From: Lysobacterales bacterium
GTDB lineage: Bacteria; Pseudomonadota; Gammaproteobacteria; Xanthomonadales; Rhodanobacteraceae
Direction: 5' to 3'
DNA: 64,000 nt
Assembly: GCA_021324945.1 (NCBI GenBank)
Contig: JAJPID010000011.1
Span: 1-64,000 of the forward strand
Under the pieces are notes generated by a model, which did not search any database, had not been told where the DNA came from, and saw nothing but the letters and a program-made list of their open reading frames with translations. Below, piece by piece: positions 21,677 to 30,625 of this stretch. Position 1 is the first letter of the stretch. The number at the start of each line of letters is the position of its first letter. The translations under genes were made by a program, and so were the position numbers.

Positions 21677-21754
21677 CGTCATTCCGGCGGTGAGCAGAGT
21701 GGCCATGGAGGATCGCGCTTTGAGGGCCAGGAGAGCCTGAAGTCAAAGGCAGAG
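21677..21754. repeat. Left part of an interspersed palindromic repeat interrupted by the transposon
   Basis: Begins CGTCATTCCGG; the matching CCGGAATGACG is at 30585-30595 on the far side of the transposon. Removing the transposon and one target duplication restores an element of about 121 bp bounded by a perfect 11-bp inverted repeat. A second copy of about 113 bp is at 51378-51490. Both contain GCGCTTTG followed by a GGCCA-containing stretch. Confidence 0.75.
21749..21754. repeat. Target-site duplication, left copy
   Basis: GCAGAG directly outside the left terminal TGCA. The identical six bases follow the right end at 30547-30552. IS21-family elements usually duplicate 4-8 bp. Confidence 0.85.
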
Positions 21755-21890
21755 TGCAAAAAACCGAGTATCTGACCACTGGCGCCAGACAAGATGATCA
21801 CCGGCGCCAGTCAAATTGACCACCCGAGTCAGACAAGATGACCACCGGCGCCGTACGGACTGACCGGCAATGCCAACGAGCTGACCATCC
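21755..21890. repeat. Left transposon end with phased transposase-binding-like array
   Basis: Terminal TGCA at 21755, then units beginning TGACC or TGATC at 21773, 21795, 21817, 21839 and 21861 (exact 22-bp steps), and a sixth partial unit at 21882. Units share forms such as CACCGGCGCCAG and CAGACAAGA. The first unit starts 18 bp from the end, exactly as at the right end. The 190 bp between this array and the LysR stop shows no gene I can support. Confidence 0.8.
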
Positions 21891-22084
21891 ACGCGTAGGT
21901 CGCTTGGCGGCGGAACCGGTTCGTCGGAGTCCGGCTGTTCACGCTTGAACCCGTGCTGGCGTTTCGTTGATGTGCCGTTGCACCCCCCGTTCCAGCATGT
22001 GACGCTTTTGGAACGTCCGCAGAATTAGTGCAGTCACCAATTAGGACCGCGCGGCCACGAGGCAACATAGCGAGCGAAAATGAT

Positions 22085-23002
22085 TCAGAACCAATCGTGG
22101 TATCGCCGGCGCTGGATGTTCGCCTCTCCAACAAGCCACTCCCGAAAAATCTTCAGCGCGGGGCTCTGTGCGTGGGCCGCCCGATAGGCGAGGTACCAGC
22201 TCTCGTATTGCTTGTGCGCCGAACCGAACGGCGCGGCCAAGCGTCCGGATTCCAGTGCGTCGCTCACATAGGGAAGTTGCGCCACCGCGACACCCACACC
22301 ATCGAGCACTGCCTGCATCGCCATCGATGAACTCTCGAAGCGCACTTCGTTCCTTGGCTTGATCGGGGAACGCAGCCCCGCGGCCTTGAACCACCATGTC
22401 CATTGCTCACGCAGGTGCGCAACCACGATGAGGGTTGCCTTGCGCAGGTCTTGTGGTTTGTGCAGGCTTTTGGCAAGCGCCGGGGCACACACCGGTGTCA
22501 GAGTCGATGCAAAGAGTTCCTCTGCGCTGTAGCCCGGCCAGTCGCCGTCGCCACGACGGATCGTGCACGTCCAATCGTCACGCAACGGGTTCATCACCCC
22601 GCCCGTCGCCACACGTACTTCAACTTCCGGATGGTCGAGATTGAAGTGTGCTAGACGCGGGATCAGCCAATGCAGCGCGAACGCTGGGGCAACCCCGACG
22701 GTGAGGACAGGGCCGGCCCGCATCGACGAGACCTGTTCGACGAGCCGGCCGATGGCCGCGAATGCATCGGTCAAGCCGGGCTGCAGTGCTCGGCCTTGTT
22801 CGGTGAGGTCCAGGCCGTTGGCATGACGCTGGAACAGCACGTAACCGAGGCGGCGTTCGAGTAGCCGCACACTCTGACTGATCGCCGCCGGCGTGACGTG
22901 CAGTTCACTTGCGGCTGCCGTGAAACTGCCATGGCGCGCTGCGGCCTCGAAAGCTCGCAAGCCATTGAGAAAGGGCGGGACTCCGTTCACGGGTATCAGC
23001 AA
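22085..23002 (-). CDS. LysR-family transcriptional regulator (GcvA-like)
   Basis: A 305-residue regulator. The N-terminal winged helix-turn-helix is NGLRAFEAAARHGSFTAAA followed by LHVTPAAISQSVRLLERRLG; the remainder is a periplasmic-binding-like effector domain starting near residue 95 (GPVLTVGVAPAFALHWLIP). The pattern with DWTCTIRRGDGDWPG resembles the GcvA/AmpR branch. It is divergent from the RND permease gene across about 255 bp, the classic LysR arrangement, so it probably controls that gene. It lies inside the IS21-type transposon. The ligand is unknown. Confidence 0.92.
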   Translation of the reverse strand: MLIPVNGVPPFLNGLRAFEAAARHGSFTAAASELHVTPAAISQSVRLLERRLGYVLFQRHANGLDLTEQGRALQPGLTDAFAAIGRLVEQVSSMRAGPVLTVGVAPAFALHWLIPRLAHFNLDHPEVEVRVATGGVMNPLRDDWTCTIRRGDGDWPGYSAEELFASTLTPVCAPALAKSLHKPQDLRKATLIVVAHLREQWTWWFKAAGLRSPIKPRNEVRFESSSMAMQAVLDGVGVAVAQLPYVSDALESGRLAAPFGSAHKQYESWYLAYRAAHAQSPALKIFREWLVGEANIQRRRYHDWF

Positions 23003-23258
23003 AAGGATAGCTATGTCTTGGGTTAGAGAAAATTGCTGGCAGTGTGATGAACCTGTCGTGAGAATAGTGCAACCACGCCATTATGTGCGATTGAACCTGT
23101 GATTGATCCGCTCGAAGCAAATGGCTAACGAATAGGTAATCTATGCCTGCACTACCGATGGGAGCAGCAATTCTTGCCATGCGCGTGGTGAGGTGTTGTC
23201 CCCGAATGACCGGCGCCTGCATCGCACCGCGCTACCTGTGGCCGTCTAAGGCGATGGC
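23003..23258. promoter_or_regulatory. Divergent LysR/RND control region with an overlapping small ORF
   Basis: A 256-bp region, locally more AT-rich than its surroundings, between the two divergent starts. It should hold both promoters and the LysR operator, but I cannot fix a T-N11-A site with confidence. An open frame of 39 codons starts ATG at 23143 and its TGA overlaps the GTG start of the permease (GTGA). This could be a leader peptide or chance. No remnant of a membrane-fusion adaptor gene is recognisable. Confidence 0.5.
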
Positions 23259-26200
23259 GTGAATTTCTCAGCACAGTTCATCGCCCGCCCCGTTGCGACA
23301 ACCCTGCTCATGGCGGCGCTGGCGTTGGCGGGGATCATTGCGTTCGCACTGTTGCCGGTCTCCGCGCTGCCGCAGGTGGATTTCCCGACCATCCAGGTCA
23401 CGGCGACGCTCGCCGGGGCCAGCGCTCAAACCATGGCATCGTCAGTGGCGACGCCGCTCGAGCGTCAGCTTGGGCAAATTCCCGGTGTGAGCGAGATGAC
23501 TTCGTTCAGCGCACTGGGCGCGACGTCGATCACGATTCAGTTCAACCTGAATCGCAACATCGATGCCGCGGCGCAGGACGTGCAGACCGCGATCAATGCG
23601 GCCAGTGGCACGTTGCCGCGGACAATGACCACGCCGCCCACCTACAAGAAGCTGAACCCCACCGACGCGCCGATCCTGGTGCTGGCCGCAAGCTCGGATG
23701 CGTATCCGCTGACCACGGTGGACCAGTTCGTGGACAACAACCTGGCGCGCAAGATTTCGCAGGTACCGGGCGTGGCCCAGGTTTCGCTGGGTGGCGAACA
23801 GGAACCGTCGATTCGCGTGCAGGTCGATCCGCGCAAGCTCGCTGCGCTCGGCATGACCTTGGAGCAGGTACGCAGCGCCTTGGTCAATGCGACCACCGAT
23901 GCCGCGAAGGGCGTGATCGATACGTCACGAACGAGTTTCGTGATCACCGCCAACGACCAGGTCACTGAGGCGCAAGCCTTCGAGAACGTTGTGCTGGCCT
24001 ACAAACATGGGGCACCGATCCATGTTCGCGACGTTGGGCGCGCGGTGGCGGCCGCAGCCGATCGCACCGCTGCGGCGTACTACGACAACCACCACGCGAT
24101 CCTGTTGACCGTATACAAGCAGCCTGGCGCGAACGTGATGGACACCGTACGCCGGATCGAGGCTCAGCTGCCACAACTGACATCCGGAATTCCAGCGGCC
24201 ATCACGATTCGTACCGTTCTTGACCGTACGGTGACCATTCGCGCGGCGGTGCGCGATGCCGAGATGACGCTGGGGTTGGCGGTCATCCTGGTCATCGGCG
24301 TGGTGCTGGCGTTTTTGGGCAGCCCGCGAGCGATGCTCGCGCCCGGCCTCACCGTCATTCTCGCCTTACTCGGTGCATTCGCGGCGATGCGGCTGTCCGG
24401 TTCGAGCCTCGACAACATTTCGCTCATGGGTTTGACGCTCGGCGTGGGCTTCGTGGTCGACGACGCCATCGTGGTGGTTGAGAACATTCAGCGGCATGTC
24501 GATGACGGCATGGCGCCGATGGACGCGGCGCTGCAGGGTACGCGTGAGATCGCCTTCACCGTATTGTCGATCAGTATTTCACTGATTGCGGTGTTCACGC
24601 CGTTGCTGCTGATGGGCGGGGTCGTCGGCCGGCTGTTTCAGGAGTTCGCTCTGACCGTGATCGCCACCATCGTGGCCTCCGTGCTGGTGTCACTCACCTT
24701 GGCGCCGATGTTGTGCGCGCGCCTTTTGCGTCGCGAAAACGGCGGGAGCGCGCGCTGGCACCGCGGAATCGCGGCAGCGTTCGACGCCCTGTCGCGAGGC
24801 TATCAGCATTCCTTGGATGGCGTGCTGCGCCACCCGGCGTTGATGCTCGGTGTGTTTTTCTTGACGGTCGCGGTGGCGCTGGTATTGGCGGTCAAGATTC
24901 CCAAAGGGTTTATCCCGATCCAGGACACCGGCCTGATTGGGGGTCTTGCCGATGCCGCGCAAGGCACTTCACCAGCCGAAATGCAGCGTCTCGAGCGGGC
25001 TCTCGACGCGGTGGTATTGCGCGATCCGGGTGTGGCTGGCGTGGCCTCATGGACGGGGAGCACGGGTGGCAACGGCTTTGCACAGACGGCCAACACTGCA
25101 CGCTACTACGTGGTGCTGAAACCACGCGATCAACGCGCCTCGGCCAGCCAAATCATCAGGCGGTTGCAGCCCAAGCTCGCAAACGTCCAAGGCGTCGTGC
25201 TGCACCTGAAGCCTACCCAGGACATCACCGTCGGCGGTCGATCCGCGCGCGGAACTTACCAGTACACGTTGCAAGGCACGGACGTCGATGAGTTGGATCG
25301 CTGGTCGCAGAAGATGCTGCAACGAATGCAGGCGCTGCCGCAGCTGACCGGCGTCGCCAGTGACCTGCAAATCGACGCGCCACAAGCCGCGCTCCACATC
25401 GACCGGACAATGGCGGGGCGCTTCGGCATATCCCCGCAAACCATCGACGACACGCTGGATGATGCTTATGGGCAGCGTCAGATCACCCAGTACTTCACGA
25501 GTAGCAATACCTACCCGCTGATCCTCGAGATCACCCCCGACCTGCAACATCGGCTCGCTTCCCTTGGCAGTTTGTACATTCAATCGCCCTTGACCGGCGG
25601 GATGGTTCCGCTGTCCGTGCTGACCGAAACGAATACCTCGAAGGTTGGGCCACTCTCCATCACCCATCAAGGGCAATTTCCGGCGGTGACGTTGACATTT
25701 GATCTTGCCCGCGGTGTTTCGCTCGGGCAGGCAGTCTCGGCCATCCAGCAGGCGGCCGAGGAAATTGGATTGCCGAGTTCCGTGCGCGGATCATTCCAGG
25801 GCAACGCCAAGGCGTTCCAGACCGCGCTGGTGGACATGCCTTGGCTGGTGCTGGTCGCGCTGGCAGCGGTTTATATCATCCTCGGGATTCTGTACGAAAG
25901 TTTCATCCATCCCTTGACAATTCTCTCGACCTTGCCGCCCGCGGGCGTGGGTGCACTGATCCTGCTGTGGGCCATGCACATGGGCCTGGACGTGATCGGC
26001 ATCATCGGGATTCTGTTGCTGATCGGCATCGTCAAAAAGAACGGCATCCTGCTGATCGATTTCGCGATCGTTGCCATGCGTGATCGCGGATTGACGCCAA
26101 CCGATGCGATCCGCGATGCATGCCGATTGCGTTTCCGGCCGATCCTGATGACGACGGTGGCGGCGCTGTTGGTGGCGCTGCCACTGGCGTTCGGGCGCGG

Positions 26201-26375
26201 AGTGGGCTCCGAACTGCGCCAACCGCTGGGTTACGCCATGATCGGAGGCCTGCTGCTGAGCCAACTGATGACGCTGTACACGACGCCCGTGATTTTTCTG
26301 TACCTCGAAAGATTCCGGGTCAAGCGAGGGCGTGCGGGAAAGGCGATCATTGAACGATCGACAAGAGCAATCTAA
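23259..26375 (+). CDS. RND efflux permease (HAE1, MdtB/MdtC-like)
   Basis: A 1038-residue inner-membrane proton-driven drug exporter. It starts MNFSAQFIARPVATTLLMA (helix 1), has the porter-domain segment LPQVDFPTIQVTA, two large periplasmic loops, and the TM4 proton relay GVGFVVDDAIVVVENIQRH with the paired Asp. The C-terminal half repeats the fold and ends in a basic tail. Length and motifs match MdtB/MdtC. The start is GTG at 23259. Functional pumps need a membrane-fusion adaptor and an outer-membrane channel. Neither is encoded here, so the permease must borrow partners from elsewhere or be idle. It is cargo of the IS21-type transposon and is divergent from a LysR gene. Confidence 0.93.
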   Translation: MNFSAQFIARPVATTLLMAALALAGIIAFALLPVSALPQVDFPTIQVTATLAGASAQTMASSVATPLERQLGQIPGVSEMTSFSALGATSITIQFNLNRNIDAAAQDVQTAINAASGTLPRTMTTPPTYKKLNPTDAPILVLAASSDAYPLTTVDQFVDNNLARKISQVPGVAQVSLGGEQEPSIRVQVDPRKLAALGMTLEQVRSALVNATTDAAKGVIDTSRTSFVITANDQVTEAQAFENVVLAYKHGAPIHVRDVGRAVAAAADRTAAAYYDNHHAILLTVYKQPGANVMDTVRRIEAQLPQLTSGIPAAITIRTVLDRTVTIRAAVRDAEMTLGLAVILVIGVVLAFLGSPRAMLAPGLTVILALLGAFAAMRLSGSSLDNISLMGLTLGVGFVVDDAIVVVENIQRHVDDGMAPMDAALQGTREIAFTVLSISISLIAVFTPLLLMGGVVGRLFQEFALTVIATIVASVLVSLTLAPMLCARLLRRENGGSARWHRGIAAAFDALSRGYQHSLDGVLRHPALMLGVFFLTVAVALVLAVKIPKGFIPIQDTGLIGGLADAAQGTSPAEMQRLERALDAVVLRDPGVAGVASWTGSTGGNGFAQTANTARYYVVLKPRDQRASASQIIRRLQPKLANVQGVVLHLKPTQDITVGGRSARGTYQYTLQGTDVDELDRWSQKMLQRMQALPQLTGVASDLQIDAPQAALHIDRTMAGRFGISPQTIDDTLDDAYGQRQITQYFTSSNTYPLILEITPDLQHRLASLGSLYIQSPLTGGMVPLSVLTETNTSKVGPLSITHQGQFPAVTLTFDLARGVSLGQAVSAIQQAAEEIGLPSSVRGSFQGNAKAFQTALVDMPWLVLVALAAVYIILGILYESFIHPLTILSTLPPAGVGALILLWAMHMGLDVIGIIGILLLIGIVKKNGILLIDFAIVAMRDRGLTPTDAIRDACRLRFRPILMTTVAALLVALPLAFGRGVGSELRQPLGYAMIGGLLLSQLMTLYTTPVIFLYLERFRVKRGRAGKAIIERSTRAI

Positions 26376-26592
26376 TCGAACCGCTCCAAGAACTTCGGCG
26401 GTGTTCGGTTCCGCTCCGACTCGCGTGGCACTACGAAACGCAGCTCTACGCCGCTCATCAACGACGTTGAGTCACGGCGTACCGGCTATTCGCGAAAGAT
26501 CAAGGTAGGTCGGTTTCAGCCAGTTGGCGCCGCTGATCGGAATCCCGCGATAGTAGGGGCGGGAACATCACGCGCACCGACTCGATGAATCG

Positions 26593-27174
26593 CTACCCTG
26601 GGTTCGGTGCCATCTTCTTCATGACTCGTTGCTCGATAATCCACGGCTTGATGTAGCCAAGGTGGACCAGCCAAACCATAGCAAGCACGAAAGCCGTGAC
26701 GCCGTACAACTTTCCGAACTGTGCGGGTGAGAGCGCGTGATGGATGGTCAGCATCTGAAGCAACACGGCCAGCGCAAATTGGCAAAACATCACGACCGCG
26801 AGACAGCGCCCGAAGATTGCAGCCCACCGGGCAGACGCCAGCGTGACGGTTCCATTGCGTCTCCTGAGGTTGCCAGTCCAACGCAGCAAACGAATCTCGC
26901 GATCGGTGAGATCGCAGCGATGTTTCAGCGCAATCAGTGCCACGCGGTCGCGCCGCGACCAATCGAAGCCGAACCGGCGGATGAACTCGCGCTCATCGTC
27001 AATGGCCGCTCGATCTGCTTCTCGTGCGCGGGACGTGCCGGTTGGGGCGTCTTCGGTCTGACCAAAATAGTCGCGCATCTCTGCGGCGATGCGCTCGATT
27101 TCCGCTTGCTGGGCCGCCGAGGGCTCGTACGACCGGCCAACATTCCACCAGGAATTACTATCGTCGCTTTGCAT
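26593..27174 (-). CDS. Two-helix membrane protein downstream of the XRE repressor
   Basis: A 193-residue protein I do not recognise. Residues 1-130 are soluble and charged, with several Glu/Arg-rich stretches (EREFIRRFGFDWSRRD) and LTDREIRLLRW. Residues about 135-190 contain two hydrophobic helices (CLAVVMFCQFALAVLLQ and GVTAFVLAMVWLVHLGY) and a short basic tail. The ATG at 27174 has GGAG eight bases upstream and lies 10 bp after the XRE stop, so the two are an operon. The 216 bp between this gene and the RND permease shows no supported gene. Confidence 0.65.
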   Translation of the reverse strand: MQSDDSNSWWNVGRSYEPSAAQQAEIERIAAEMRDYFGQTEDAPTGTSRAREADRAAIDDEREFIRRFGFDWSRRDRVALIALKHRCDLTDREIRLLRWTGNLRRRNGTVTLASARWAAIFGRCLAVVMFCQFALAVLLQMLTIHHALSPAQFGKLYGVTAFVLAMVWLVHLGYIKPWIIEQRVMKKMAPNPG

Positions 27175-27184
27175 GAGGCAGCTC

Positions 27185-27622
27185 CTACGCTGCGAGGGAA
27201 AGGAGGTCCCGTATTTCGTGCGCATCAGCTCGGCCGGCCAACGCACACCGTCGGTACGCAAGCCCGATGAGATGGGCCTTCTTGTCCGGCCGGAGCCGCT
27301 TGCCTGCCCGATGCAGCCCTTCTTCAATGACCCGTACGACGGCTTCCAGTAAGGCCAGGTCCAAGTGGCATTCGAGCGCGTGCACCGGAACAGGCTCAGG
27401 GCCACGCAGCAGCCAGATGGGATCGATGCCATGTACGTCAAGCAGAGCGCGAAACAGCACCACCGGCATTTCGCGCTCGCCGCGCTCGTAGTTCGCGAAT
27501 GCCCGCGGCGAGAGGCCGAGGCTTGCCGCAAAGGCGCTCTGGCTGAGCCCGGTGGATGCTCTCACCGCGGTGATCCGTGCACCGATCGCCTTGTTCTCGC
27601 TGGTCGTCGCGATACTACTCAT
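27185..27622 (-). CDS. XRE-family repressor (Mu-c-like position)
   Basis: A 145-residue DNA-binding protein. The N-terminal helix-turn-helix spans about residues 12-55: IGARITAVRASTGLSQSAFA, LGLSPRAFANYERGEREMP, then a short helical C terminus with no protease or membrane domain. It is transcribed away from the Ner-like gene; only 29 bp separate the starts. This repressor/Ner pair in front of a transposase and an AAA+ helper copies the c-ner-A-B order of phage Mu, so the likely role is control of istAB. That role is inference from position and family. Confidence 0.82.
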   Translation of the reverse strand: MSSIATTSENKAIGARITAVRASTGLSQSAFAASLGLSPRAFANYERGEREMPVVLFRALLDVHGIDPIWLLRGPEPVPVHALECHLDLALLEAVVRVIEEGLHRAGKRLRPDKKAHLIGLAYRRCALAGRADAHEIRDLLSLAA

Positions 27623-27628
27623 TTATGC

Positions 27629-27662
27629 TAGAGTCTGTACTCGGCTAAGTAATGCGACTCTA
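27629..27662. promoter_or_regulatory. Nested inverted repeats between the divergent repressor and ner-like genes
   Basis: Outer arms TAGAGTC (27629-27635) and GACTCTA (27656-27662) are perfect complements. Inside the left part lies a second palindrome, GAGT-ctgt-ACTC (27631-27642). They fill the gap between the two helix-turn-helix genes, where a shared operator is expected. The right arm reaches into the first codons of the Ner-like gene if it starts at 27652. Confidence 0.55.
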
Positions 27663-27927
27663 TCACATGCGCTGCGGCCTTCAGCAACACGAACGGATCA
27701 AGATGCGGCTGCGGCTCGCCGGCACGTCGCTGGCCGACGTGGCGCGTGAGCTTGGGGTCACGTCCACCACCGTGACATCGGTGAGTCAGGGCGCACGACG
27801 CTCGCGACGGATCGAGGCGCTGATCGCCGCCAAGCTGCAGACCACCCCACAGCGCTTGTGGCCTGACCGTTATTCCACCGCTCAAAGGCCATCCCCTGCG
27901 CACGCAAGGAGGCCGACCGTGACGTAA
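27652..27927 (+). CDS. Ner/Nlp-like transcriptional regulator
   Basis: A 91-residue protein whose middle matches Mu Ner by eye over some 60 residues: helix-turn-helix GTSLADVARELGVTSTTV, a basic RRSRRIE segment, then IAAKLQTTPQRLWPDRY, the family's WPxRY ending. A short Pro/Arg tail follows. In Mu, Ner turns down early transcription including its own promoter and the repressor promoter. ATG at 27652 or 27667 may be the start; neither has a strong ribosome-binding site. It points toward istA, about 215 bp away. Confidence 0.75.
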   Translation: MRLYHMRCGLQQHERIKMRLRLAGTSLADVARELGVTSTTVTSVSQGARRSRRIEALIAAKLQTTPQRLWPDRYSTAQRPSPAHARRPTVT

Positions 27928-27943
27928 CCTCGCGCTGATCGGA

Positions 27944-27996
27944 TTTTCCTGCAACAGGAAAAGCAAAAGCCCCGGCGGTAGGACGCGCGGGGCTCG
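27944..27996. terminator. Two hairpins between the Ner-like gene and istA
   Basis: TTTTCCTG-caa-CAGGAAAA near 27944-27963, then a GC-rich stem GCCCC/GGGGC around 27970-27995 preceded by AAAA. The second lacks a T-run on the plus strand but has one on the minus strand. They could attenuate transcription into istA or be repeat remnants. Confidence 0.4.
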
Positions 27997-28141
27997 GGAT
28001 TGCAGTGAAGCATTGATGTGCCTGCATTCTCACCGCCTTTCCCTGATGCGTCAAGGCTTGGACTGCTCTGCGCGGGCGGCCCAGTGGGGTGCGCTCGTCG
28101 CCAACGCCGGCGGTGGCGCGCTATGGCATGGGAATGCAGAC

Positions 28142-29677
28142 GTGGCTGCCATCAAAGAAGTGTGTCGCATGGTGCTGACCACCGACCTGTCGAACCGACA
28201 GATTGGGCGGAATCTGGATGTTGCGTATAACACGGTGCGGCGCTATCGCCGACGCCTCGCGGACGAAGGCCTGGTGTGGGCCGCCGTCGATGCGCTGGAC
28301 GAGCAAGCTCTGGAGGAACGAATCAATGACGGTCGACGGAGAGCGCGCCGTACCTTCGTTGAGCCGGACTGGTCGCACGTTTACGCGGAAATGCAGCGTC
28401 GCGGTGTCACGCTGACGTTGCTGCACGAGGAGTATTCCGAGGGACTGGACAACGGCGCGATGTCAGCCACCGAATTCCGGCGTCGGTATAGCCGCTACCA
28501 GCGTTCGCGTGGCTTGGTGATGCGGCAAGTGCACCGTCCGGGCGAATGCCTTTACCTCGACTTCTCTGGGGTACGGCCGTACTTGACCGATCCAACGACC
28601 GGCGAGCAAACGCCAGTGGAGCTGTTCGTGGCTGCGTTCGGAGCGAGCCGAAAAACGTTCGTGCTGGCAGTGCCCAGTCAAAAGCTCCCCGACTGGATCG
28701 ACGCCAACGCCCAAGCGCTGGCGTTCTTCGGCGGCGTACCCACGTTTCTCGTCCCGGACAACCTGAAATCGGCGGTGACTTCGCACCGGCGACGGGAAAC
28801 GGTGGTTCTCAACCCAACCTTTGCCGAGTTCGCAGCGCACAACGGCACCACGATCCTTCCGGCGCGGCCGCATCGTCCGAAGGACAAAGCCCACGTGGAA
28901 CTCGCCGTCAAAATCGCGCAGCGGTGGATTCTCGCGCGGCTGCGCAACCAGGTTTTCACGAACCTGCAGGATCTCAATGGCGCGATCCGCAAGCAGTTGG
29001 ACCGGATGAATACCAAGCCCATGCGCAGCTGCGGGAATAAGAGCCGCGATCAATTGTTCGACGAACTGGACCGGCCTGCGCTGCGGGCACTGCCCGTGGA
29101 ACCGTATACATACGCCGAATGGAAAATCGACGTGCGTGTCGGGCAGGACTACCACGTGCGGTGGGACGAACAGTACTACTCGGTGCCGTACACCCTGATC
29201 AGCGCCAAGGTCAACGTCAAGGCAACGGCGAAGGCCATCACGGTGTTCCACCGAGACCACCGCGTCGCGCTGCACGTGCGCTCTTTCGTGCCGGGCCACA
29301 TCAGCACGTTGCCGGAGCATCAGCCAAAGTCGCACCGGGCGTATTCGCAGGACCAGCCGGCTGCGATCCTCACATGGGCGCAGCACGCTGGCAATGCGAT
29401 CTACGCCTTCCTGAACCAGCACATCGACAAGTACCGGCGGCCGGCGCTGTCGCTACAGGCTGGTCGCGGCTTGCAGCGACTCGCGCGTGAGTTCGGCGAG
29501 GAGCGACTTGAAGTCGCTTGCGAACGTGCCCTGCAACTACACGCGACCAGCATCAAGACGGTGCGCTCGCTGTTGGAACGTGGCCTCGAAAAGGCCGCTG
29601 TCGGCACCAAGGCCGCCAATGACGAATCCCTGCCGGCGCACGAGAACGTGCGCGGGCCTTCCTACTACGAACCGTGA
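28142..29677 (+). CDS. istA: IS21-family transposase IstA
   Basis: A 511-residue DDE transposase if started at GTG 28142; an in-frame extension to 28013 exists but its residues look non-coding. The N-terminal helix-turn-helix is LTTDLSNRQIGRNLDVAYNTV. The catalytic core shows YLDFSG (first Asp), VPDNLKSAV (second Asp) and KDKAHVELAV (Glu), the IS21 DDE arrangement. The C terminus has the beta-rich WDEQYYSVPY domain shared with MuA-type enzymes. istB follows after 10 bp. No disruption is visible, so the enzyme is probably active. Confidence 0.92.
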   Translation: MAAIKEVCRMVLTTDLSNRQIGRNLDVAYNTVRRYRRRLADEGLVWAAVDALDEQALEERINDGRRRARRTFVEPDWSHVYAEMQRRGVTLTLLHEEYSEGLDNGAMSATEFRRRYSRYQRSRGLVMRQVHRPGECLYLDFSGVRPYLTDPTTGEQTPVELFVAAFGASRKTFVLAVPSQKLPDWIDANAQALAFFGGVPTFLVPDNLKSAVTSHRRRETVVLNPTFAEFAAHNGTTILPARPHRPKDKAHVELAVKIAQRWILARLRNQVFTNLQDLNGAIRKQLDRMNTKPMRSCGNKSRDQLFDELDRPALRALPVEPYTYAEWKIDVRVGQDYHVRWDEQYYSVPYTLISAKVNVKATAKAITVFHRDHRVALHVRSFVPGHISTLPEHQPKSHRAYSQDQPAAILTWAQHAGNAIYAFLNQHIDKYRRPALSLQAGRGLQRLAREFGEERLEVACERALQLHATSIKTVRSLLERGLEKAAVGTKAANDESLPAHENVRGPSYYEP

Positions 29678-29687
29678 GGAGATCGAC

Positions 29688-30422
29688 ATGACCCTGCAAT
29701 GCACCATGGATGAATTGCGTGAGTTGAAGCTGTCCGGAATGCTCGGCGGTTTGGAGCAACAGCTCAGCCAAACCACGTACCAGGACCTACCATTCGAGGA
29801 ACGGCTTGGCCATCTGGTGGACGCCGAGGTCAGCCATCGGCAAACCCAGCGCCTCCAACGCATTCTGAAGAATGCCAAGCTCAAGGTCCACGCCGATCCC
29901 GAATCGATCGACTACCGACCCGGCCGTGGGTTCGAACGACCGGTGCTGGCCGACCTGCTGTCCTGCACATGGGTCGAGCGCAAGCAGAACATCCTGATGA
30001 CAGGCAAAACTGGCACGGGCAAGACTTGGCTTGCCTGCAGTTTTGCTGTGCAGGCCGCACGGAAGGGGATCACCATTGGTTACCGAAGAGTCTCACGCCT
30101 GCTGGAAGACATGGAAATTGCGCATCAGGACGGGTCACTTGGCAAACTGCGCGCTCAACTCGCGAAACTGCGACTCCTGATCCTCGATGACTTCGGACTG
30201 GTGGCGCTCACGGCGCGTGGCCGCGCTGACCTGCTCGAACTTCTGGATGATCGCGTCGGGTGCGTATCCACAATCGTCGCTGGTCAGATGCCCGTCAAGG
30301 AATGGCACGCCTTCATCAATGATCCGGCGCTGGCCGATGCGATTCTCGACCGACTCGTTCACAGCAGCATGAAGCTGAACCTCAAAGGCGAATCCATGCG
30401 CAAGCTGAAAACGGCAAGCTGA
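29688..30422 (+). CDS. istB: IS21-family helper ATPase IstB
   Basis: AAA+ ATPase of 244 residues that selects and remodels target DNA for IstA. Walker A is GKTGTGKTWLA near residue 105 and Walker B is LLILDDFGL; a C-terminal arginine-rich ending (LVHSSMKLNLKGESMRKL) matches the family. The start ATG at 29688 has GAGGAG nine bases upstream. The stop lies at the inner edge of the right transposon array. Confidence 0.94.
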   Translation: MTLQCTMDELRELKLSGMLGGLEQQLSQTTYQDLPFEERLGHLVDAEVSHRQTQRLQRILKNAKLKVHADPESIDYRPGRGFERPVLADLLSCTWVERKQNILMTGKTGTGKTWLACSFAVQAARKGITIGYRRVSRLLEDMEIAHQDGSLGKLRAQLAKLRLLILDDFGLVALTARGRADLLELLDDRVGCVSTIVAGQMPVKEWHAFINDPALADAILDRLVHSSMKLNLKGESMRKLKTAS

Positions 30423-30439
30423 CCGACCAACAGGTGATC

Positions 30440-30546
30440 AACTTGTTGGCGGCGCCGATCGCTTTGACTGGCGCTGCTGATCAGTTTGAATGGCAATGCT
30501 GGTCAGTTCGTTGGGCGAACAGTGGTCAATTGGTTGGCGTTCTGCA
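30440..30546. repeat. Right transposon end with phased site array
   Basis: On the minus strand, units begin at 30528 (TGACCACTG), 30505 (TGACCAGC), 30483 (TGATCAGC), 30461 (CGATCGGC) and 30440 (TGATCACC), steps of 21-23 bp. The terminal TGCA is 30543-30546. The first unit starts 18 bp inside the end, as at the left. Confidence 0.8.
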
Positions 30547-30595
30547 GCAGAGGCGCTGAACTCCGGATCGTCGCTACGCGGCGACCGGAATGACG
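30547..30595. repeat. Right target duplication and right part of the interrupted palindromic repeat
   Basis: 30547-30552 is GCAGAG, the second copy of the target duplication. The segment ends with CCGGAATGACG at 30585-30595, the complement of the left boundary at 21677-21687. Confidence 0.75.
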
Positions 30596-30625
30596 ATCAA
30601 AGGCAAAAGGCTGGCGCTGAGATAT

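Follow-up and report, generated by a model that had tools for sequence, protein, structure and literature searches.

The 8.8-kb element that we delimited in the window, the whole 64,000-nucleotide stretch of Lysobacterales bacterium DNA analysed here, is an IS21-type cargo transposon bearing an efflux-pump gene. It is bounded by a 6-bp direct repeat, GCAGAG, and by TGCA tips lying just inside that repeat, which together delimit 8,792 bp (window 21755-30546). An earlier note on this DNA had described phased terminal repeats at both ends, and these were confirmed. The repeats are probably transposase-binding sites for IstA. The features of the element, in window coordinates, are as follows.

21749-21754: left copy of the target-site duplication, GCAGAG, a direct repeat
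21755-21772, plus strand: left terminal tip, TGCA..., 18 bp outside site L1
21773-21794, plus strand: end site L1
21795-21816, plus strand: end site L2
21817-21838, plus strand: end site L3
21839-21860, plus strand: end site L4
21861-21881, plus strand: end site L5
21882-21900, plus strand: weaker end site L6, TGACCA, 21 bp after L5
22085-23002, minus strand: cargo gene for a LysR-family regulator
23259-26375, plus strand: cargo gene for an RND efflux permease (nearest models RND_permease_2 and MdtB/MdtC, with scores below cut-offs)
26593-27174, minus strand: accessory gene ACC, its presumed start at the ATG just past the XRE stop
27185-27622, minus strand: XRE-type HTH regulator, conserved in relatives
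27652-27927, plus strand: Ner-like HTH_35 regulator, possible start at 27667
28130-29677, plus strand: istA transposase, conservation beginning at about 28130
29688-30422, plus strand: istB helper ATPase, Walker A GKTGTGKT
30419-30440, minus strand: weak end site R5, overlapping the end of istB
30441-30461, minus strand: end site R4, which reads CGATC
30462-30483, minus strand: end site R3
30484-30505, minus strand: end site R2, 23 bp from R1
30506-30528, minus strand: end site R1
30529-30546, minus strand: right terminal tip, TGCA... when read inward
30547-30552: right copy of the target-site duplication, GCAGAG, a direct repeat

Successive sites were 22, 22, 22, 22, and 21 bp apart in the left array and 23, 22, 22, and 21 bp apart in the right array. 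The ten unit starts given in the earlier note, from 21773 to 21861 on the left and from 30528 to 30440 on the minus strand at the right, were all exact, and the first site did lie 18 bp inside each end, the ends being fixed by the TGCA tips and the GCAGAG repeat. Some details of the units needed correction: R4 begins with CGATC, R5 is weak, and the left end has a further weak site, L6, at 21882. With a matrix derived from the ten units, R5 ranked 68 of 127,954, and it fell below the threshold of a stricter count, which gave five sites on the left and four on the right.

The matrix scan that had been suggested along with the arrays was run on the window and found an equal array nowhere else in it. 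When the matrix was trained on the five left units, the right array was the best remaining chain in the 64-kb window, with a score of 51.4 compared to -9.7 for the next; this chain ran from 30549 to 30461, one unit shifted outward. When it was trained on the five right units, the left array was the best remaining chain, with a score of 64.0 compared to 9.0 for the next. Single right units were cross-predicted poorly, with left-trained ranks of 433, 6, 5, 163, and 14,468 of 127,954, and the right-trained ranks of the single left units were 16, 3, 44, 76, and 14. The pattern TGAYC-N16-18-TGAYC-N16-18-TGAYC had five exact, overlapping matches in the element's own genome (2,497,086 bp in 67 contigs), four at the left end and one at the right end, and the reversed-pattern control had none. 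Two single sites within the RND gene, at 26020 and 25345, scored well but formed no strong chain and were treated as chance occurrences.

Elements of the IS21 family are typically known as small, with no genes beyond those for their own transposition, and they duplicate 4 to 8 bp of the target; structurally, the family is a model for the activation of a transposase by an AAA+ ATPase. Both transposition genes of the element passed the IS21 models, istA with 246.1 bits against NF033546 (cut-off, 160) and istB with 241.6 bits against NF038214 (cut-off, 200). The listed open frame of istA begins at 28013 and the first in-frame ATG of its conserved part is at 28169; the acidic residues D183, D249, and E296, counted from 28013, fall in invariant alignment columns. 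The listed open frame of ACC extends to 27531, and the protein had no Pfam match. No adaptor gene for the RND permease was noticed within the element. In a PADLOC scan, five proteins gave no hits. The element shares with the IS21 family the type of IstA, a downstream IstB, inverted ends with direct repeats, and a short duplication, but not the small size and the restriction to istA and istB. Because it spans 8,792 bp and carries five more genes, we have filed it as a cargo transposon of the IS21 type rather than as an insertion sequence.

IstA relatives sharing 50% identity or more along most of the protein came from the same order only. A search of 233 genomes of the family yielded genomes G382, G369, and G534, and a search of 398 genomes of the order added G833, G854, G816, G863, and G843; searches of the class (369 genomes) and of the phylum (398 genomes, at the cut-off of that search) gave no new relative. 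A scan of genome contigs returned a single relative, on a contig that matches the one of G369 in length and position. A plasmid relative came from one record among the best 60 of 2,000 matching, Xanthomonas hydrangeae plasmid LR990732.1 (here Xhyd). The subfamily thus comprises ten loci including the window, and both ends and a duplication were found in seven of the ten. No left tip was found for G833, and of the two loci on short contigs or at contig ends, G863 had an array on the right only and G816 had none. Each of the seven complete elements has at either end a TGAYC, TGGAC, or TGCCC block starting 18 bp inside the tip, and each is flanked by a direct repeat whose length varies (5, 6, or 7 bp). 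Their lengths, duplications, left and right site numbers (stricter count in parentheses), and cargo are given below.

Window element: 6 and 5 sites (5 and 4); LysR and RND
G382: 8,587 bp; duplication ACATGC; 5 and 4 sites (4 and 3); LysR and RND
G369: 13,619 bp; duplication GGCGAC; 3 and 5 sites (4 and 5); ArsB, a low-molecular-weight phosphatase family protein, a P-type ATPase, and a glyoxalase-family protein
G534, contig 86: 10,101 bp; duplication GCCAGG; 4 and 4 sites (1 and 4); BluB, CobS, a CobC-like protein (below cut-off), CobT, a CobU-type protein, and CobQ
G843: 11,958 bp; duplication GCGGT; 3 and 9 sites by the counter, 3 and 10 by direct reading; a 2,387-aa RHS/SpvB-like protein with a CDI-toxin-like end
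Xhyd (L061): 6,053 bp; duplication CCTTGAG; 4 and 4 sites (4 and 4); a YopJ-family protein
G854 (L080): 8,033 bp; duplication GTCGCAT; 4 and 4 sites (3 and 2); an ADP-ribosyltransferase-domain protein

The ends and the transposition genes were conserved among elements with differing cargo: an RND pump in two of them, arsenic/metal genes, cobalamin genes, and an RHS/CDI-like gene in one each, and effector-like genes in two. The LysR-RND pair of the window (22085-26375) is in reverse orientation compared to that of G382 (L062, 6143-10407), and the LysR and RND proteins of the two elements are 70% and 63% identical, versus 87% for IstA. The backbones of Xhyd and G854 are 96.7% identical over 4,287 bp and diverge further left; these two loci are a case of near-identical backbones with different effector-like genes. 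The cargo of G534 is a six-gene late cobalamin synthesis cluster (L063, 5465-11339) located within an IS21-type element that has a 6-bp duplication. In an IstA tree, which was used for subfamily grouping alone, the eight cargo rows and G863 clustered apart from the plain rows; a Rhodobacter row that carries a Ner-like gene joined the cargo cluster (97/98) on a very long branch, and rows L004, L006, and L007, also on a long branch, are wrong-strand artefacts.

The repeat unit is bipartite, consisting of a GCCA-like block, an AT-richer spacer, and a TGAYCA or TGGAC block. The AT fraction of the spacer in inner units was 0.47 and 0.53, versus 0.32 and 0.33 at outer positions, as measured in 28 units of the window, G382, and G369 elements (22 of them inner) and in 24 units of the TGGAC elements (18 inner), respectively. 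The closest structural counterpart was IS5376 of Geobacillus stearothermophilus (8b4h, 8q4d), whose IstA (two chains) was the sole PDB molecule matched by the IstA of the element, with E values of 1.9e-17 for the single sequence and 3.5e-25 by profile; the alignment begins at chain residue 47 (single sequence) or 77 (profile) and omits the first DNA-binding domain. The two elements share the istA-istB order, the pairing of a DDE transposase with an AAA+ helper, inverted ends in which bipartite direct repeats recur every 22 to 23 bp or so, and a short target duplication. In the excerpted text of the IS5376 report (PMC10122671), the direct repeats are 23 bp apart and have two GC-rich conserved segments with about ten variable, mostly AT, bp between them; integration requires two direct repeats, and the IstA tetramer occupies two per end, with its catalytic subunits on R1 and the other two on R2. 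Compared to IS5376 as described in those excerpts, our element is larger (8.8 kb), carries cargo and regulators, and has five to six sites at each end where IS5376 has two, steps mostly of 22 rather than 23 bp, and a duplication of 6 rather than 5 bp (PMC10122671). The resemblance to IS21 repeats that the earlier note had pointed out was thus borne out, both by the istA and istB scores above the IS21 cut-offs and by a unit that is bipartite like that described for IS5376.

Since the units are bipartite as in IS5376, IstA binding is the best reading of them. We consider it likely that the arrays are the two ends of one IS21-type cargo transposon and that each 22-bp unit is a site for the DNA-binding domains of IstA. 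By analogy with IS5376, an IstA tetramer would hold the outermost two sites of each end and connect the pair of ends to the target DNA that IstB has engaged, and insertion would leave the 6-bp duplication. Additional IstA would most likely be loaded through the further phased sites, all on one face of the helix, which could raise occupancy and help to pair ends that are 8.8 kb apart. Against this explanation we counted the IstA alignment that leaves out the first DNA-binding domain, the weakness of R5 and L6, the poor prediction of single right units from the left, the varying duplication length in the subfamily, and, as regards current mobility, the single copy found in the element's own genome.

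Five sites per end had been called more than usual. This holds when compared to the published rule, which in its excerpted form is that IS21 ends normally hold at least two sites, but among the elements surveyed here five sites turned out to be common at left ends and a little above the norm at right ends. We tried 48 distinct loci of plain IS21 elements and obtained confident ends for 22 of them (14 and 8 in two sets), with an end-finding rule that used a duplication of 4 bp in the first set and 5 bp in the second; L046, whose ends are spurious, was left out of the counts. In all 40 control pairs, run with the first survey set, the phase-optimised unit counter scored one or two units at each end. 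The 22 plain elements had from one to five sites on the left and from one to five on the right, and the seven with a duplication of at least 5 bp had four to five on the left and two to four on the right (L012, 5 and 3; L127, 4 and 3; L131, 5 and 4; L009, 5 and 2; L014, 4 and 2; L040, 4 and 3; L049, 5 and 4). Plain elements without a duplication probably begin at an inner site and so are undercounted. With the phase-optimised count, the right ends of the subfamily had 4 to 10 sites versus 2 to 4 in those seven plain elements. Two of the latter, the ISPre4-annotated L127 and the Sphingomonas pBAR4 element L131, resemble our element in having phased arrays at both ends, and differ from it in being about 2.6 kb long, without cargo and with mostly 23-bp steps; no XRE, Ner, or ACC gene was found in either. 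Arrays of such length are thus general in this branch of IS21, and the "at least two" wording understates them. The more unusual part of the element is its cargo and its regulators, which the earlier note did not take up.

A less probable alternative, which we nevertheless take seriously, is that only the outer two sites of each end function and that the inner units are leftovers or spares from duplication or drift. The requirement of IS5376 for two repeats, with two bound per end in the excerpted report (PMC10122671), suggests that the inner sites might not be needed. R5 and L6, the units furthest from the tips here, are weak, and the number of sites varies from 3 to 10 per subfamily end, falling to 1 in the stricter count at the left end of G534. 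Arguing against this alternative is G843, in which the whole stretch between the istB stop and the right tip (L083, 18340-18532) is filled by ten phased sites, against three sites at the left end. A matrix derived from the window, G382, and G369 found this ten-site chain with a score of 52.6, compared to -60.2 for the next. Pairwise identity among its ten units was 0.73 in the core columns versus 0.41 in the spacer, and the steps were a constant 21 to 22 bp. Tandem-repeat scoring of the array yielded only two- to three-copy pieces with 78 to 89% match, and because these pieces are short and imperfect, the units are not fresh copies. Multiple sites also recur in plain IS21 elements. Phased arrays that occur naturally with 5, 6, and 10 sites offer ready substrates for asking what the extra sites do.

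When the tips of the two ends were aligned, the second end site was out of register between the ends in all 14 elements with duplication-defined ends (seven subfamily and seven plain elements, the related ones among them not being independent). The offset was one base in 13 of the 14, tied with -2 in G369, and two bases in L009, for which the counter steps (23 on the left, 22 on the right) imply an offset of one base. Its sign differed by lineage, and the margins were small in several elements, for example 10 versus 9 of 18 matches in the window. Several elements without a defined tip, which have no bearing on this regularity, showed no register shift.

Upstream of the transposition genes, the order in the element is XRE (minus strand), Ner-like (plus), istA (plus), and istB (plus). 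In phage Mu, a divergent repressor gene, c, is followed by ner, the transposase gene, and the ATPase gene, and c and Ner control expression. The likeness of the arrays to Mu end sites noted earlier holds as an analogy and proved to be wider, extending to the two genes before istAB, one Ner-like and the other a divergent gene of the XRE type. Mu and the element have this gene order in common, as well as several transposase sites per end in Mu and probably here, and XRE is the candidate repressor in a comparison drawn by gene order. They differ in that the element has an IS21-type transposase; neither a MuA-type transposase nor virion genes were found among the proteins scanned, and the IS21 model fit instead. 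The divergent XRE gene and the Ner-like gene would most likely time istAB expression, as c and Ner do in Mu. Used as a single sequence, the Ner-like protein matched EnrR (8.8e-4) ahead of phage Mu Ner (0.0023), and used as a profile it matched Mu Ner (1.4e-5) ahead of EnrR (2.3e-5); tblastn against phages gave no match.

Both regulator genes precede istA in five of the ten subfamily loci (window, G382, G369, G843, and G863), contig 86 of G534 has XRE without a Ner-like gene, and the scan detected neither gene in Xhyd, G854, G833, or G816. Outside the subfamily, one of 63 further IS21 loci carried the module (contig 75 of G534, IstA 41%) and 62 had no match; at least five of the 63 are second stretches of the same element, and many had about 1.5 kb beside istA. 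Ten additional plasmid IS21 loci gave no hit to the module. That the element encodes two HTH regulators, and that phased operators are common, might suggest that the arrays are operators of the XRE or Ner-like protein rather than transposase sites. This is very improbable: the arrays lie at the tips, inverted and 18 bp from the ends, and occur in plain IS21 elements. They are also retained in Xhyd and G854, where neither XRE nor Ner was found, and for this reason we rejected the operator reading. Because these two elements keep their arrays, the arrays track IstA and IstB.

Related genes were found ahead of other transposition genes. In Phaeobacter inhibens (L094), a Ner-like gene with a divergent XRE gene precedes an operon annotated as TnsA-type, Mu-transposase-C, ATP-binding, and TniQ, and in Leisingera (L097) a Ner-like gene precedes a Mu-transposase-C, TniB, and TniQ operon. 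In Rhodobacter, a related gene accompanied by a weak XRE match lies before istA and an istB that is split; in Phaeobacter porticola, one lies close to fragments of istA and istB. In G794 (L098), XRE, Ner-like, and accessory genes go with a probable Tn7-like operon, an assignment made from order and size together with a single Mu-transpos_C match slightly short of its cut-off, since NCBIfam named none of the four proteins. In the stretches shown, the related gene of Thioclava was not adjacent to a transposase, and the Paraburkholderia XRE match H61 had no IS21-type transposase alongside. The element thus resembles Tn7-like and Tni-type cargo transposons in having a transposase with an ATPase, cargo, and a Ner-like gene like those before the L094 and L097 operons, and it differs from them in that no TnsA or TniQ/TnsD gene was identified among the element proteins scanned.

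The proposal that an IS21 lineage has turned into a cargo-transposon family, with a Mu-like switch, 3 to 10 IstA sites per end, and cargo swapped on a shared backbone, and with an XRE/Ner module that is itself mobile and serves IS21-type and Tn7-like elements alike, seems to us evenly balanced between being right and wrong. If it is true, regulation of the transposable-phage kind would be a common property of the wider transposase-plus-AAA group. That relatives with a Mu-like module carry cargo suggests an ability of IS21-type elements to move large genes between genomes, as Tn7 and Mu do. We recognised no description of IS21-type cargo transposons, or of a Ner module in IS21, in the open-licence papers searched. 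Tn6048 of Cupriavidus metallidurans, a large transposon with cargo that can be likened to ours by size and cargo alone, has 10.4 kb, eight genes, and a 5-bp duplication in the excerpts of its reports (PMC2864759, PMC11952213).

Plain IS21 elements in the survey are about 2.4 to 2.7 kb long with both ends near istAB, so the left array could be thought to belong to a second IS21 copy, with the 8.8 kb arising from two insertions that came to be paired by chance, but this is barely credible given the matching tips, the one 6-bp duplication around the whole 8.8 kb, the absence of the exact three-site array elsewhere in the own genome, the same layout with a different duplication at a different site in G382, and five more relatives that are long elements between duplicated flanks; on the single duplication and the parallel G382 element, we rejected such a composite origin. 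The site of the single 8.8-kb insertion was examined by searching 16 genus genomes, its own included, with each flank. Both flanks matched on one contig in 12 others, and in 8 of these 12 they were 58 to 261 bp apart, indicating that the element is absent there. They were 797 bp apart in G375. In G370, G373, and G383 they were 3.7 to 3.8 kb apart, and something else may occupy the same intergenic place. An exact empty junction was aligned in none of the relatives because the site adjoins a dispersed repeat. The right flank had 165 matches in the 16 genus genomes, most of those listed being short and within its first 70 bases. This dispersed intergenic repeat lies beside the element at window positions 30547-30600 and at about 21677-21741.
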